Assembly: GCF_001870205.1 (NCBI RefSeq)
Contig: NZ_CP017267.1
Location: forward strand, 1,910,501-1,974,500
Origin: Vagococcus teuberi
GTDB lineage: Bacteria > Bacillota > Bacilli > Lactobacillales > Vagococcaceae
Direction: 5' to 3'
Length of the DNA: 64,000 bases
The translations under genes and the position numbers were made by a program. Below the pieces are notes generated by a model. The model worked only from the letters and a program-made list of their open reading frames with translations, searched no databases and was not told the DNA's origin. Position 1 is the stretch's first letter. The number at the start of each line of letters is the position of its first letter. Below, one piece after another: positions 27,823 to 48,772 of this stretch.

Positions 27823-28060
27823 AACAAAAAAGTCCTAAAGTTATTTCTAACTTTAGGACGATTATCTCGCGGTACCACCTATCTTATAAGCATACAAATA
27901 CGCTTATCTCTTTAGGTCATATAACGTTGACAATACGGTTCCCACTCCTAGGCTACCTTCATACTTTTAAATGGAAAATCTTTCAGCCGATGGATTTTCT
28001 TTCTGCAACATATCCAAGTATTACTCTTCCTATTCTTTGTGGTTGTTTATGCCATTCATT
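27823..28060 (-). promoter_or_regulatory. T-box leader of valS (tRNA-Val)
   Basis: The T-box sequence AGGTGGTACCGCGAGAT is at 27880-27864 on the minus strand. The terminator GTCCTAAAGTT / AACTTTAGGAC with T run follows (27859-27823). Stem I precedes; the stretch GAAGGTAGCC near 27963-27954 offers GTA (Val) as specifier followed by a purine. Uncharged tRNA-Val would stabilise the antiterminator and turn on valS-folC. Confidence 0.92.
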
Positions 28061-39580: not shown

Positions 39581-39838
39581 TTATCCTATTAATTCCTCTT
39601 CACTGTCGTGAAATAAAACTTCAACTGAATGAGTTAAAATATCAGTATAGCTATATGATACACGTTCAAAAGCATTTTCTTCTTGATCTAATTGTACAAT
39701 AAAAACGGATGGATATAATTCGGCTAAAACGCCATGACGCTCAGTTTGCTTTTTACGACCAGTTTGAGCTACCAATTTTATTCTACTACCAACTTTATTT
39801 TCTAATTCTTCTTTTATAGTGGAGATATTTATAGACAT
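39581..39838 (-). CDS. veg: Veg protein
   Basis: 85 residues from the ATG at 39838 (AGAGGTG 7 bases upstream). DUF1021 family with GSRIKLVAQTGRKKQTERHGVLAELYPSVFIV. In Bacillus Veg stimulates biofilm formation; the molecular role is open. Confidence 0.92.
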   Translation of the reverse strand: MSINISTIKEELENKVGSRIKLVAQTGRKKQTERHGVLAELYPSVFIVQLDQEENAFERVSYSYTDILTHSVEVLFHDSEEELIG

Positions 39839-39981
39839 TTTATTCACCTCTTTGTCTAAGTATACCATAGACGAACAAAAAATACAAATTTTACCATAAT
39901 TGTTTTTATTTTTCAACACTATTTTTATTTTTTCATAGAATAATTAGTATTTTTTATTAAGAGAGATAACTACTTTATTTT

Positions 39982-40524
39982 TTATGGATTAATACAATAA
40001 TGCATAAACTTTTTCTTCACACGGGATAACGCTCGTTTATCCTTTAATTGGCTACACTCTTCTATAGTATTTTTAACAAACACTTGTCTTTCGTATTCAG
40101 ATAATGACTCAGAAAATAATAACGCATTTTCCTTATAAAAAATATACTTAAAATTTTCTGATGACCTTTTTTCTACTAAAGCTTTCGTTCCATCGATTTC
40201 TTCGACACTTATCGCCCCAGTTTCTTTATCTGCTCTTCTTTTATACGCTTCTTGGTGTCTAATCAATGAAAAAACATGATTTTTAAAATTCATACGAAAA
40301 AAACTACCAAATGTTGCACCTTTTTTTCGATCAAATGTTTGAATTGATTTATAACAACAAATCCGACCTTCTTGTAACCAATCATCTGTATCAAAATACA
40401 TCAAATGATAAACCCGTTTCACACGATAAACGATCGGCTGATACGTTTCAAAAATATAAGCGAAAGAATATGAACAACCTTTTTTCGCTCTCTCAATAAG
40501 TAGTTCTAAAATCTCTTCTTCCAT
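39982..40524 (-). CDS. comX: Sigma-70-family factor, ComX/SigX-like
   Basis: 180 residues with region 2 (SFAYIFETYQPIVYRVKRVYHLMYFDTDDWLQEGRICCYKSIQTF, then GATFGSFFRMNFKNHVFSLIR) and a short region-4-like end (LSEYERQVFVKNTIEECSQLKD). It resembles the alternative sigma factors ComX/SigH that switch on competence genes in streptococci and lactic bacteria. AAGGAGG before ATG. Expected targets would have a com-box; a prepilin peptidase gene is in the window at 59911. Confidence 0.85.
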   Translation of the reverse strand: MEEEILELLIERAKKGCSYSFAYIFETYQPIVYRVKRVYHLMYFDTDDWLQEGRICCYKSIQTFDRKKGATFGSFFRMNFKNHVFSLIRHQEAYKRRADKETGAISVEEIDGTKALVEKRSSENFKYIFYKENALLFSESLSEYERQVFVKNTIEECSQLKDKRALSRVKKKFMHYCINP

Positions 40525-40665: not shown

Positions 40666-41106
40666 CTAACTACCCTCTATTTGTTTAATACTATAACGTA
40701 ATAAATTATTCTTCGAATCATGAGTAATCGTTATTTTTTCATTTGTTTCATCAAATGGTCCTATGGTAAATACTTCATACTGATCATCTAATATTTCAAC
40801 ATCTTTAATATAATTAGAAAAAACCTCACGAAATCGTTGCATCTTACTTAACTTTTTAATTGCTTTCTCGTAAGCCATAGAAAGAGTATACCCACTATCT
40901 AAGTATTCTTTTATTAGCTCTACTTTTATAATGTCACTTAACTTATAAGCTCTTGGACTATTTGGATCTGGTTGAATTGACTTTATATATCCTTTCTTTT
41001 CCCAATACCTTAGTTGTCTTGTTGTTGCTCCTGTTTTTTTAGTCAATTCGCTGATCCCCATACGTATATCCTCATGTTCTATCCACTCTTTAATCTTTGA
41101 CACCAT
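40666..41106 (-). CDS. MerR-family regulator
   Basis: 146 residues. N-terminal MerR helix-turn-helix and wing: GISELTKKTGATTRQLRYWEKKGYIKS, PNSPRAYKLSDI. Then a short coiled-coil helix and a C-terminal part without the Cys cluster of metal sensors. Divergent from an MFS pump with a shared dyad operator between them, so it most likely controls the pump and itself. Confidence 0.92.
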   Translation of the reverse strand: MVSKIKEWIEHEDIRMGISELTKKTGATTRQLRYWEKKGYIKSIQPDPNSPRAYKLSDIIKVELIKEYLDSGYTLSMAYEKAIKKLSKMQRFREVFSNYIKDVEILDDQYEVFTIGPFDETNEKITITHDSKNNLLRYSIKQIEGS

Positions 41107-41147
41107 ATAACCTAATCCCTACCTTCTAGCGACTTTTATCTCTTCTT

Positions 41148-41210
41148 AATATACACCTGACGAACATCCGTGTCAATGTAGTTGACAATATTGTTCGCCA
41201 GGTGTATATT
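41148..41210. promoter_or_regulatory. Symmetric divergent promoter/operator of merR and the MFS pump
   Basis: Two 19-base arms AATATACACCTGACGAACA and TGTTCGCCAGGTGTATATT pair at 18 of 19 positions around one centre. Inside sits TGTCAA-n5-TTGACA with the same centre (41179). Plus strand: TTGACA 41182-41187, 17 bases, TATATT 41205-41210. Minus strand: TTGACA 41176-41171, 17 bases, TATATT 41153-41148. The core also fits TGTNA-N7-TNACA, the GlnR/TnrA site. Confidence 0.88.
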
Positions 41211-41250
41211 ATTTTTTGTTGTAAAAATAAACTTACTAGGAGGAAATCTC

Positions 41251-42726
41251 ATGAGTGATACACATTCCTTAGATATTCATGGTAACACCTATAAACGTAG
41301 TCTACTCGTTACTGTACTTTTAATTGGAACTTTTTGTACAGTATTAAATCAAACGCTACTTACTACTGCTTTTCCAACATTAATGGAAGATTTTAATGTT
41401 TCTGCTGCGACTATTCAATGGTTAACAACAGGATTTTTATTAGTTAACGGAATTATGATTCCTATTTCTGCGTGGCTTATGAATAAATTCAACTCAAAAA
41501 ATTTATACATTGGTGCGATGAGTATTTTCTTAGTTGGAACGATTCTTTGTGCGATTGCTCCAACATTTTCTATGCTACTAACTGGCAGACTAGTTCAAGC
41601 TGCTGGAGTTGGTGTGTCAATGCCTTTAATGCAAAATATTATGTTAAACATCTTTCCACCAGAAAAGCGTGGTGCCGCGATGGGCGGAGCCGGAATTGTT
41701 ATTGGACTTGCTCCAGCTTTAGGACCAACACTATCTGGTTACATTATCGATCATTATGTATGGCGTGACTTATTTTATATGGTCATTCCTATTGTTGTAT
41801 TAGTTATCATTTTGTCGCTTTTTGCTATGAAGAGCGTATTAGAACTTTCTAATCCTGCTATCGATGTTTTATCTATCTGTCTTTCTACTCTAGGATTCGG
41901 TTCATTACTTTATGGATTTTCTAGTGTCGGCAATGATGGATGGGGCAGCACAAAAGTTATCAGCTTTTTAGCTGTTGGGATTATGACATTAATTATTTTC
42001 ACTTGGCGACAATTAACCATTGAAACACCATTTTTAGAGCTTAGAGTGTTTAAATCAAAAACTTATACGATTGCAACAATTCTTTCCAGTTTAGCAAACA
42101 TGGCAATGATTGGAGCTGAAATGGTTCTTCCTTTATACATTCAAAATATTCGAGGCGAATCTGCGTTTCACTCTGGTTTAATGTTATTGCCTGGTGCATT
42201 AGTCATGGGATTCATGATGCCAATTACTGGGAGAATTTTTGATAAACATGGAGCAAAACGTTTAGGTATCATGGGGATGTTTTTACTGACAAGTGCGACA
42301 ATTCCTTTTATGTTCCTAACTGAAACAACTCCTGTTATTTATATTATTACGTTATATGCTGTTCGTATGTTTGGTATTTCCATGGTTATGATGCCTTTAA
42401 CAACTCTTGGTATGAACTCATTACCAAAACATTTAATGACACATGGGACTGCCGTAAACAGTACCTTACGACAAGTAGCTAGCTCAGTGGGTACAGCTAT
42501 TTTAATTAGTGTCTTAACAAACCAAACTAAAAATGCGTTACCAAAAGAATCTCTATTAAAATCATCTCCTCTTGAATACAAAGAATTAGCCACTCATGCC
42601 ACTTTAACAGGTTACCATGCTGCCTTTTTAGTTGCTGTTTTATTCGGGATTATCGGTTTAGTCACCACATTCTTTATTCACGAAAATTCTAAAAAAGCAT
42701 CTCAAAGTAAGGAGGTCATCTCATGA
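41251..42726 (+). CDS. MFS drug exporter, DHA2 family (LmrB-like)
   Basis: 491 residues from the ATG at 41251 (AGGAGG 7 bases upstream). About 14 membrane helices. Motif A region LMNKFNSKNLYIGAM, motif C GAGIVIGLAPALGPTLSG typical of antiporters. Exports drugs or toxic metabolites with proton exchange (family inference). Its last 4 bases overlap the DUF4811 gene; control by the divergent MerR protein is likely. Confidence 0.93.
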   Translation: MSDTHSLDIHGNTYKRSLLVTVLLIGTFCTVLNQTLLTTAFPTLMEDFNVSAATIQWLTTGFLLVNGIMIPISAWLMNKFNSKNLYIGAMSIFLVGTILCAIAPTFSMLLTGRLVQAAGVGVSMPLMQNIMLNIFPPEKRGAAMGGAGIVIGLAPALGPTLSGYIIDHYVWRDLFYMVIPIVVLVIILSLFAMKSVLELSNPAIDVLSICLSTLGFGSLLYGFSSVGNDGWGSTKVISFLAVGIMTLIIFTWRQLTIETPFLELRVFKSKTYTIATILSSLANMAMIGAEMVLPLYIQNIRGESAFHSGLMLLPGALVMGFMMPITGRIFDKHGAKRLGIMGMFLLTSATIPFMFLTETTPVIYIITLYAVRMFGISMVMMPLTTLGMNSLPKHLMTHGTAVNSTLRQVASSVGTAILISVLTNQTKNALPKESLLKSSPLEYKELATHATLTGYHAAFLVAVLFGIIGLVTTFFIHENSKKASQSKEVIS

Positions 42727-43439
42727 TTGTCATCTTAGTTATTCTTAGTGTGTTACTATTTGCTTTCACATTTATTTTCTCAAAATCAACATGGCAATAC
42801 ATTTTAACCGTGATTTTCGGTATTGTTTTTATCGGAAGTATTGTATTAATGGAAATGAATTATGCTCATCACTTTGGAATGGAGAAAGAAACAACAACGA
42901 AAGAAATTTCTCTTGTGAGTTCAGCTGATGCAGAGAATTTAAACATTCTATTATACCAACCTGTAGGAACAAAAGGAGATAAAGTCTATCTGTATAAAAC
43001 AACACCTACTCAGAAAAAAGTCTCTCAAACAGGAACAGATCATGTAACAAACACTGTCAAAACAGCCGATACAGATAAAGCAGCTCTAGAAATAAAAACG
43101 ACTCGTTGGGTATATAAAGATTCTTTTTATGACTTATTATTTGGTATTTCTGGAAACAATAAAGAATTTGATTCTAGAAAAAATACGTTCTATCTTCCAA
43201 GTGATTGGTTAGAATTAAGCACAGATCAAGCTAAAAAACTAGAAGAAGAAATGTCTGCTAAAAAGGACACCCTAGAAGCAGATATAAAAAAATATGTTGC
43301 TGATAAACTAAAAGAAGAGATTACTAAGGATCCAGCTATCGCAACAAATAAAGATAAACAAACAGAATTATCTGAAACTTATGCTAAAGAATATAAAGAA
43401 AAAATGATGTCTGATATTCTGAAAAATATTTCAAAATAG
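42723..43439 (+). CDS. DUF4811 protein, partner of the MFS pump
   Basis: 238 residues. Two membrane helices at the N-terminus (about 3-18 and 25-42), then an extracellular or soluble domain rich in Lys and Glu with a long C-terminal helical stretch. DUF4811 genes regularly follow LmrB-type exporters in lactic bacteria, and the ATGA overlap supports a joint function. Role unknown; possibly an accessory subunit. Ends at a strong terminator. Confidence 0.88.
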   Translation: MIVILVILSVLLFAFTFIFSKSTWQYILTVIFGIVFIGSIVLMEMNYAHHFGMEKETTTKEISLVSSADAENLNILLYQPVGTKGDKVYLYKTTPTQKKVSQTGTDHVTNTVKTADTDKAALEIKTTRWVYKDSFYDLLFGISGNNKEFDSRKNTFYLPSDWLELSTDQAKKLEEEMSAKKDTLEADIKKYVADKLKEEITKDPAIATNKDKQTELSETYAKEYKEKMMSDILKNISK

Positions 43440-45233: not shown

Positions 45234-45633
45234 TGTTTTTTTCTCCTATTGTTTGAATACACCATGCAATAATTTCTTCTAAGCGTTCTTTTTGCTCTGT
45301 TAAATGTAGATACCCCATCAATGCTTCAAATCCAGTTGATGATCGATACACAGCAATCGACGTATTTTTGGCACTCGTATGACTTTTAGCATTACGTCCA
45401 CGGCGATAGATATCTTGTTCTATTTCAGCTAATAAGTCTTGCATCATCATTTGTTCAATCAAATAATGTTGTGCTTTTGCTGAAACATAATGTGTTGCTA
45501 AACGGTGTAATTGATTCGGGCGAGTTTGCCCACTTTTTACTAAATAATCGCGAATATATGTCTCATATATGGCATCCCCCACATAAGCTAGTGTTAACCC
45601 ACTTAATAAGGTATAATCTTTTTCATTTGTCAT
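45214..45633 (-). CDS. mrnC: Mini-ribonuclease III
   Basis: 139 residues: an RNase III domain without dsRNA-binding domain. Matures 23S rRNA. Signature region [18 protein letters not shown] with the catalytic acidic residues. It overlaps cysS and rlmB ends, indicating translational coupling. Confidence 0.95.
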
Positions 45634-47048
45634 TCACTTCTACTCCATCTTGTTCCTTGAGGGGTATCTTCTAAAATAATCCCTTGTTCTTTTAATAAAT
45701 CACGTATCTCATCACTTCTAGCAAAGTTTTTTTCTTTACGAGCGGCATTTCTCTCAGCGATTAACGCATCAATGTCACCGTCTAATAAATCCGTTTGATT
45801 AACAAGTTCAATCCCAAAAATAAGCATTAGTTTTTCTAATGTTTCTTGGTAAGCCGTGATAACTTCTTTTGACACCGCATCTTCTTCTAGATAACGATTC
45901 AAGTATTTCACTAATTGATAAACAACCGTGATACCGTTCGCGGCATTGAAATCATCGTCCATCTCTGTGACAAATTCTATCATTAATGAAGACAACTCTT
46001 TTAACCAATCATGGTCGTTTTCTAAAGAATCCACTGCTGTTTCTAATCTAAACGTTGCATTATTGTAACTACTTTTTATACGTCCTAAATTAGTCGTTGC
46101 TTCTTTGATGGTTGTCTCATTGAAAGGCATTGGTCGACGATAATGTGTCGTTGATAAAGCGAAACGCACCACTTCTGGTGACACATCTTTCATCAAATCA
46201 TGTGCGGTAATAAAGTTGCCAAGTGATTTACTCATTTTTTCACCTGATTCACCTACAGTTAGATACGCATTATGCATCCAATAATGAGCAAACGTTTCAC
46301 CCGTTTTCGCTTCACTTTGAGCTATTTCATTTTCATGATGAGGGAATTCTAAATCCTGTCCACCTGCATGAATATCTATTGTATCACCTAAATGTTTAGT
46401 TGCCATCACAGAGCACTCAATATGCCAGCCTGGACGACCTTTTCCCCAAGGTGAATCCCATGATACTTCATGCTCTTTTGCTTCTTTCCATAAAGCAAAG
46501 TCTAGCGGGTCTTCCTTTTTAGCTGATTCAGCACCCGTTCTTTGACTCGCACCTGTCTCTAATTCATCAATACTTTTATTACTTAATTTACCATATGGTT
46601 CAAATTTACGCGTACGATAGTACACATCTCCTTGTGACTCATAGGCATATCCTTTTTCAACCAACACAGAAATAAAGTCGATAATGTCATCAATATGATC
46701 AACAACACGTGGATGCAGACAAGCTGGTTGCACATTTAATTTGCCAGTGTCTTCTTTAAATGCGTCAATAAATTTATCTGCTAATTCTTTGGTTGAAATA
46801 CCTTCTTGATTCGCTGTCTTAATAATTTTATCATCCACATCTGTAAAGTTAGAAACATAATTAACTTTGTAGCCCCTAAATTCAAAATAACGGCGAACAG
46901 TATCAAATGCTACGGTACTTCTAGCATTTCCTATATGAATGTAGTTATAAACAGTTGGTCCGCATAGATACATGCTGACTTCATTTGGTTTAATTGGCAC
47001 AAAATTTTCTTTTTTACGACTTAAAGTATTATAAATTTTTATTCCCAT
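45630..47048 (-). CDS. cysS: Cysteinyl-tRNA synthetase
   Basis: Charges tRNA-Cys. 472 residues. Zinc Cys in [15 protein letters not shown] (with HIGH as HIGN), [27 protein letters not shown] in [11 protein letters not shown]. Preceded by a Cys-specific T-box. Confidence 0.98.
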
Positions 47049-47070: not shown

Positions 47071-47285
47071 AAAAGCACCCTTTAACAATACACATATACT
47101 GTTAAAAGACGCTCTCACGTGGTTCCACTTTTTTTCATTCACTTTACTTAGTGAATCTTTTTGATAATGTAACGTCTATCACACGAGACTAACTACTTAT
47201 TTCACTAGTCCTACTCAAAGAGGCATTTCACTGATATATTGCCACTTGTTTGCACCTACCACAAGCTCTCTAAAGACACGATATC
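47071..47285 (-). promoter_or_regulatory. T-box leader of cysS (tRNA-Cys)
   Basis: T-box sequence AGTGGAACCACGTGAGAGCG at 47128-47109 on the minus strand. The terminator TTTTAACA / TGTTAAA with T run follows (47112-47072). In Stem I, GTGAAATGCCTC near 47233-47222 offers TGC (Cys) as specifier. It lies between gltX and cysS and lets cysS-mrnC-rlmB-rae1 respond to uncharged tRNA-Cys. Confidence 0.9.
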
Positions 47286-47296
47286 ACTTACTTTTC

Positions 47297-48772
47297 TTAT
47301 CCTTGTATTTCGTTTAATGCTAAATTAATATGTTCAGTTGCTTGATCTTTACCTAATAAAAGAATCGTTTCTGCTAATTCTGGACCATGCATTTGACCAC
47401 TCACGGCTACACGAATTGGCATGAACAGTTTTTTACCTTTAGCACCTGTTTCTTTTTGTACAGCTTTAATTGCTTTTTTAATTGCTGGAACATCAAATTC
47501 TTCTAAGTCATTTAATTCTTTTTTAAATGCTTCTAATACTTCTGGTACTTGCTCATCTGATAAGACTTCTTTAGCGGCATCATCAAATGTCAATGTATCA
47601 TTAAAGAATAAACTGGATAATTCAACAATTTCTTTTGCATAACTCATTTGTGGTTGGTAAAGACTTACCAATTCTTCCACCCATGCTTGTTTTTCAGCTG
47701 ATGGGTTTTCTTCTACTAAACCTGCTTCGATTAAGTATGGTAAAGCCATCTCTGCCATTGTTTTTCTATCAAGTTGTTTCATGTATTGATTGCTAATCCA
47801 CTCAAGTTTTTTATTATCAAATGCTGCAGGCGATTTACCTAAACGATCTGCATCAAAGATTTTAATAAACTCTTCTTGGCTAAAGATTTCTTCTTCACCC
47901 ACTGGAGACCAGCCTAGTAAACTAATAAAGTTAAACATCGCTTCTGGTAAGTAACCTAATTCACGGTATTGTTCGATAAATTGTAGAATCGTTTCATCAC
48001 GTTTACTTAATTTTTTACCTGTTTCAGTATTAATGATTAATGTCATATGACCAAATCTTGGTGGAGTCCATCCAAATGCTTCATAAACCATTAATTGTTT
48101 TGGTGTGTTCGCAATATGATCATCTCCACGTAAAACGTGTGTAATTTTCATTAAATGATCATCCACAGCAACCGCAAAGTTATATGTTGGTATCCCGTCA
48201 CGTTTTAAAATGACAAAATCGCCACCAACACTATCAGATTCAAATGTAATGTTTCCTTTTACAATGTCATCAAATGTGTATTCTTCGCCTTTTGGTACTC
48301 TAAAACGAACAACTGGTGTAATTCCTTCAGCTTCTTTAGCTGCTTGTTGTTCTGGTGTTAAGTGAGCACATTTTCCGTTGTAACGTGGAATTTGTCCACG
48401 ACTACGTTGGCTCTCACGTTCTGTTTCTAATTCTTCTTCGGTACAGTAACATTTATAAGCTAAATTACTTGCTAATAATTGATCTACTAATGGTTGATAG
48501 ATATCTTTTCTTTCAGATTGACGATAAGGACCGTATTCACCTGGCTTATCAGGTGACTCATCCCAGTCAATATTTAGCCATGCTAAGTTATCTAACTGAC
48601 TTTTTTCTCCGTCTTCAATATTACGTTTTTGGTCTGTATCCTCTATACGAATGATAAAATCACCGCCATGATGACGAGCAAATAAATAATTAAATAATGC
48701 TGTTCGAGCATTTCCAATATGCAAATGACCTGTTGGACTTGGTGCATATCTGACACGTACTTTATTTCCCAT
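47297..48772 (-). CDS. gltX: Glutamyl-tRNA synthetase
   Basis: Charges tRNA-Glu (and often tRNA-Gln in Firmicutes). 491 residues from the ATG at 48772 (GGAAGG 7 bases upstream). HIGH motif [18 protein letters not shown] at about 9-26, KLSKRD near 255, anticodon-binding helices at the C-terminus. Confidence 0.98.

Follow-up and report, generated by a model that had tools for sequence, protein, structure and literature searches.

A candidate operator made of two back-to-back -35 boxes between a GlnR-related MerR-type regulator and an EmrB-type pump in Lactobacillales

How might one regulator act on the pump gene encoded opposite to it and on its own gene? The question is raised by an inverted repeat that separates a MerR-family gene from a drug pump gene in Vagococcus teuberi (genome size, 2.18 Mb). 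The repeat lies in a 64-kb stretch of DNA, the whole of which was analysed and is called the window here (Table 1). The original prediction for this site named a MerR protein and an LmrB-like drug pump as its neighbours, and both are confirmed by matches to Pfam and TIGR00711. The EmrB-type MFS pump gene adjoins a DUF4811 gene, as in the cyclic-di-AMP export module. Among named relatives, Vagococcus bubulae is the closest, and its regulator is 82% identical.

Paired promoters on a common dyad

A recount reproduced the geometry that had been described. The outer 19-base arms (41148-41166 and 41192-41210) are paired at 18 of 19 positions, and the inner TGTCAA (41171-41176) and TTGACA (41182-41187) are separated by 5 bp, with a centre at 41179. 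With 30-nt arms, 25 of 30 positions pair around 41179. The runner-up in the 64 kb scores 21/30, and the background over window centres has a mean of 8.2 (s.d. 2.5). Folded as single-stranded DNA, the dyad region has an energy of -20.4 kcal/mol (z = -9.8 relative to shuffled sequences). A terminator was considered and rejected: the search gave no terminator-like site, and both transcripts are predicted to start downstream of the dyad.

The proposal of divergent promoters on one common dyad stands, as each strand reads TTGACA, 17 bp, TATATT (11 of 12 consensus letters). The promoters had been called perfect; this is true of both -35 boxes, but slightly too strong for the whole because both -10 boxes match the consensus at only 5/6 positions. 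Transcripts are predicted to start ~7 bp past the -10 boxes, at about 41217 (+) and 41141 (-), which would give the pump a leader of ~34 nt to its start codon at 41251, and merR (start codon at 41106) a leader of similar length. The sequence AGGAGG is found ahead of the pump start codon, at 41238-41243. The core, TGTCA-ATGTAGT-TGACA (41171-41187), fits the GlnR/TnrA operator TGTNA-N7-TNACA, as had been noted from the outset.

Table 1. Features of the merR/pump locus in window coordinates. Promoters are predicted from sequence.
Feature	Position	Strand	Remarks
MerR-family regulator, 146 aa	40666..41106	-	Pfam MerR_1, 3.6e-11; GlnR-like wHTH, long helix, predicted C-terminal beta meander
merR promoter TTGACA-17-TATATT (predicted)	41148..41176	-	-35 box 41176-41171, -10 box 41153-41148
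Extended lineage-specific dyad	41147..41211	.	30-nt arms, 25/30; 5-nt centre
Core putative operator TGTCAA-N5-TTGACA	41171..41187	.	half-sites double as the -35 boxes of the two promoters
Pump promoter TTGACA-17-TATATT (predicted)	41182..41210	+	-35 box 41182-41187, -10 box 41205-41210
LmrB/EmrB-type DHA2 MFS exporter, 491 aa	41251..42726	+	TIGR00711, 7e-110, above its cut-off
DUF4811 membrane protein	42723..43439	+	PF16069, 1e-55; overlaps the pump stop codon by 4 bp

Elsewhere in the window, Rfam identifies two T-box leaders, at 27851-28046 (-) and 47102-47312 (-), the latter immediately upstream of a cysteinyl-tRNA synthetase-like gene at 45630-47048 (-). A gene at 39982-40524 (-) encodes a small sigma-70-family protein of the SigH/ComX type, scoring below the family-specific cut-offs, and adjoins a Veg homologue at 39581-39919 (-).

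Conservation of the core in Lactobacillales

Homologues of the regulator were sampled from three sets: 29 genomes of the family, GTDB species genomes and 295 genomes across the order. A homologue is present in 71 of the 295 genomes, some of these being paralogues elsewhere in the genome. All 11 family genomes with the regulator also encode DUF4811, which occurs without the regulator in one genome only. From Vagococcus and other Lactobacillales we compiled 67 distinct merR/pump loci with no more than two core mismatches; a rearranged locus (L046), a locus without the core (L048) and a distant protein without the pump (L053) stand outside this set. The pump gene is divergent from merR in the related loci, and DUF4811 comes next after the pump where the flanking DNA suffices.

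An exact TGTCAA-N5-TTGACA stands upstream of merR in 64 of the 67 loci (one mismatch at two loci, two mismatches at one). Its central five bases occur in 25 versions, and the gap length is five at every locus. On the pump side, a -10-like hexamer is found at exactly 17 bp in 67/67 loci; in the first 48 loci it matches on average 4.75 of 6 letters, where other exact offsets give 0.4 to 3.5. The merR-side hexamer, at a distance of 16 or 17 bp, averages 5.0 matching letters. The -10 boxes themselves vary, with 13 and 12 combinations of spacer and hexamer on the two sides. In most relatives the merR box is TATAAT or TACAAT with a 16-bp spacer, and the pump box is TATATT or TAAAGT with a 17-bp spacer. 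The same -10 box and spacing on both strands were seen at only five of the 67 loci, all of the Vagococcus lineage, so that the description of one promoter repeated on each strand is true of this lineage and not of the other loci.

The check suggested with the original prediction, a search for the dyad upstream of LmrB-DUF4811 pairs in relatives, gave a divided answer: the 17-bp core survives, being exact at the 64 loci, and the 63-bp dyad does not. Symmetry of the outer arms is not general (median 17/30 over the 67 loci), and the extended palindrome of some Limosilactobacillus loci differs in sequence from that of Vagococcus. As judged from these comparisons, the conserved unit is the 17-bp core of back-to-back -35 boxes, and the outer arms are a local elaboration of the Vagococcus lineage. 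Species-specific co-evolution of the arms was rejected, as 12 of 120 permuted pairings among the five Vagococcus-lineage loci were just as good.

The exact core is also specific to its location. The V. teuberi genome contains a single copy, at the merR/pump locus. A wider regulon was rejected, given that the 13 one-mismatch sites in the genome are no more than for the control pattern; most lie within long ORFs and two are near genes of unrelated function. The 29 family genomes contain 21 exact cores, 10 of them at the merR/pump locus; the other 11 are no more than the 15 matches of the reversed pattern, which served as control. We estimate that an exact core would occur by chance in a 145-bp gap at ~2e-5 per locus (~11 in roughly 74 Mb). 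At ten of ten paralogous merR loci without this pump the core is absent (best, 3-5 mismatches), and at the one second-copy merR locus beside a pump homologue it is exact.

Several loci depart from the common arrangement. In L046, merR is no longer opposite the pump, yet an exact core is kept at the pump promoter; this core now faces a cation-efflux gene, which its left half could therefore serve. One Vagococcus-family genome (G012) has DUF4811, a pump gene and a site, TGTTAATTAGTTTGACA, with one mismatch; no MerR regulator homologue was detected in it. The pump gene of this genome (L099 1-630, L090) appears to be frameshifted, and a MarR-like gene lies downstream of DUF4811. Lacticaseibacillus pantheris (L048, 3820-4000) has a divergent merR/pump pair and is, among the homologues sampled, the only such locus that lacks the core. 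In L013 (G028) the exact core lies at a greater than usual distance upstream of merR, and the interval contains additional TTGACA boxes. Two loci, L136 1489-1984 and L142 1412-1883, have paralogous regulators lying upstream of another MFS gene, which shares ~24% identity with the pump; the near-palindrome upstream of them (TGGTAAGTAAGTTAACA / TGGAAAGTAAGTTAACA) may be a related operator.

The regulator and its kinship with GlnR

A profile of 23 homologues searched against the PDB retrieves GlnR first (7tea, 6.7e-12), followed by CueR and TnrA, in agreement with the GlnR/TnrA type of the site. The AlphaFold model of the regulator (mean pLDDT, 83) aligns best with GlnR bound to DNA (4r4e; Z = 11.2, r.m.s. 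deviation of 2.2 for 82 residues), but CueR and others follow within one Z unit, and the fold alone therefore does not single out a relative. GlnR reads T3, G4, T5 and T7' of its site by its base-reading residues (PMC9249791). These three residues, Arg28, Arg31 and Tyr32 in GlnR of Staphylococcus aureus (PMC9249791), are present as Arg30, Arg33 and Tyr34 in the window regulator. The original prediction had set the GlnR-type site against the MerR protein next to it; the two are compatible, since GlnR too is MerR-like and, of the solved structures, comes nearest to this regulator by profile.

The equivalent of Arg30 is serine in the Limosilactobacillus and Apilactobacillus homologues, which keep the half-sites, so recognition cannot depend on this residue alone. 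All 18 Limosilactobacillus-type (Ser-Gln) proteins go with the site centre ATNAT, and the regulator of L048 has alanine at the position of GlnR Arg28. These pairings hint that protein and site co-vary, to which kinship may contribute.

The wHTH domain is followed by a long helix and then, in the model, by a predicted four-stranded beta meander. Foldseek gave no match at E <= 0.001 for the C-terminal beta part alone; its matches are weak (Foldseek, best E of 0.25; VIA, best Z of 5.2, r.m.s. deviation of 4.0, 60 residues aligned). No SRF/PRF-type tail was seen at the C-terminus. The genome's GlnR is a separate gene adjoining glnA, and the window regulator is not encoded with glutamine synthetase. 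By sequence profile, the DNA-binding domain of the regulator is closest to GlnR, but the protein is not GlnR.

Proposed mechanism, alternatives and known systems

From the dyad, the promoters, their conservation, the gene linkage and the kinship with GlnR we infer binding, repression, a release signal and polymerase competition. A regulator dimer would bind the half-sites TGTCAA and TTGACA with its GlnR-like winged helices. The half-sites are the -35 boxes of both promoters, and the bound dimer would block RNA polymerase at each, repressing the pump/DUF4811 operon and merR together from one site. A ligand or a changed state of the regulator would lift repression, and two polymerases would then compete for the promoters because the -35 boxes are only 5 bp apart. 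We regard this scheme as probable, although the coreless divergent pair of L048 counts against it. Repression is favoured since the putative operator covers both -35 boxes, and the retention of the site almost letter for letter in lactic acid bacteria points to a single common site by which one repressor would switch the two genes. The switch that admits one polymerase at a time, as first proposed, is plausible from the geometry.

The same geometry bears on the classical MerR mechanism, in which a regulator seated in a long spacer twists the promoter into activity. Such a mechanism might be expected of a MerR-superfamily protein adjoining an efflux pump. Classical sites have a 19-20 bp spacer and are centred within it, 7-8 bp from the -35 box (PMC5045206). 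The misfit pointed out originally is real: spacers here measure 16-17 bp, and in 67/67 loci the centre of the dyad falls beyond them, on the upstream side of the -35 boxes. In the window this centre is at 41179. The classical mechanism does not fit such a layout, and we consider it extremely improbable. It is unlikely, too, that the regulator binds the core as a ligand-dependent activator of the pump, or as a mixed activator and repressor, in the manner of TnrA. The regulator is related to TnrA and GlnR, and TnrA mainly activates (PMC9249791); it can do either, according to site position. In the window, the site coincides with the -35 box and does not precede it. Moreover, each promoter has a consensus -35 hexamer, which should make help unnecessary.

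Control by the nitrogen regulator GlnR would account for the fit of the core to TGTNA-N7-TNACA in a genome that has glnR adjoining the glutamine synthetase gene. However, the genome's own glnR site, TGTTAGATTATCTCACA, has a different inner half-site, the loose GlnR pattern is not in excess (60 in the genome, 75 for the control), and the core tracks the merR/pump locus; this alternative is very unlikely. Finally, the dyad may be nothing but a pair of strong promoters, set back to back and alike in their -35 boxes, while the regulator acts elsewhere. Both halves are exact -35 consensus sequences with -10 boxes at the correct distance, and conservation of the paired boxes could partly reflect promoter strength. 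Promoter strength would not explain why the 5-bp gap is invariant, why the hexamers are kept near-perfectly while the -10 boxes vary, or why the core is absent at paralogous merR loci, which makes this explanation quite unlikely.

When an EmrB pump and its DUF4811 neighbour are overexpressed in Lactococcus lactis, internal cyclic-di-AMP falls and external cyclic-di-AMP rises (PMC6108528). Because this homologous pair exports cyclic-di-AMP, such a role is a reasonable possibility for the pair in the window, and the genome encodes one diadenylate cyclase. It is rather unlikely that a Lactobacillales-wide, GlnR-related MerR repressor detects this messenger, or a state linked to it, and sets its export by the pump/DUF4811 pair through a single operator; if true, this would be a previously undescribed transcriptional feedback on cyclic-di-AMP. 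A 2023 review described the role of non-mutational changes in such pumps as not known (PMC10243994), and the Lactococcus precedent offers a concrete route to ask whether export is regulated without mutation. A literature search for the regulator family found no experimental study; in a Latilactobacillus sakei network, a MerR protein (LCA_RS02015) and a DUF4811 protein (LCA_RS02005) have close locus numbers. Our analysis predicts an operator, a target and a mode of action for a widespread regulator family, and places a MerR-superfamily protein with predicted GlnR-type DNA reading at an efflux locus. The candidate common operator is strongly conserved and apparently undescribed; its general kind, an autoregulated divergent repressor with a pump, is known. 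For a MerR-superfamily protein the layout is unusual, in that two -35 boxes, not a classical stretched spacer, make up the putative operator.

Among known systems, GlnR and TnrA, the MerR-like nitrogen regulators of Firmicutes, share with the window regulator the DNA-binding domain, the base-reading residues, the half-sites and the 17-bp site; the window core agrees in half-sites and spacing with the operator of the GlnR co-crystal, CGTGTCAGATAATCTGACACG. Unlike them, the window regulator is not beside glnA and apparently has a single local target; it differs further from GlnR in its long helix and beta meander, with no glutamine-synthetase-binding tail seen. The classical activators MerR, CueR and BmrR share the wHTH superfamily and an efflux gene target, but the window site departs from theirs in its promoter spacer and in the position of the operator. 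The rmaX-llmg_1210-llmg_1211 genes of L. lactis (MarR, EmrB pump, DUF4811) have the same pump/DUF4811 pairing (PMC6108528), but rmaX is of the MarR type and in the same operon, whereas the window regulator is a divergent MerR. CvkR, McdR and HnoC, also of the MerR type, are reported or proposed to act as repressors through promoter occupancy (PMC9938897). CvkR has a C-terminal dimerisation domain of beta strands after its wHTH, where a beta meander is predicted for the window regulator. It resembles the window system in the overlapping divergent promoters at cas12k/cvkR (PMC9938897), and ranks first in a Foldseek search with the whole regulator model, but with a TM-score of only 0.47 and an r.m.s. 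deviation of 12.1. The sites of these three proteins are in the spacer or over the -10 box or start, whereas the window site is on both -35 boxes; and CvkR did not bind its own promoter (PMC9938897), whereas the candidate operator in the window is common to regulator and pump.
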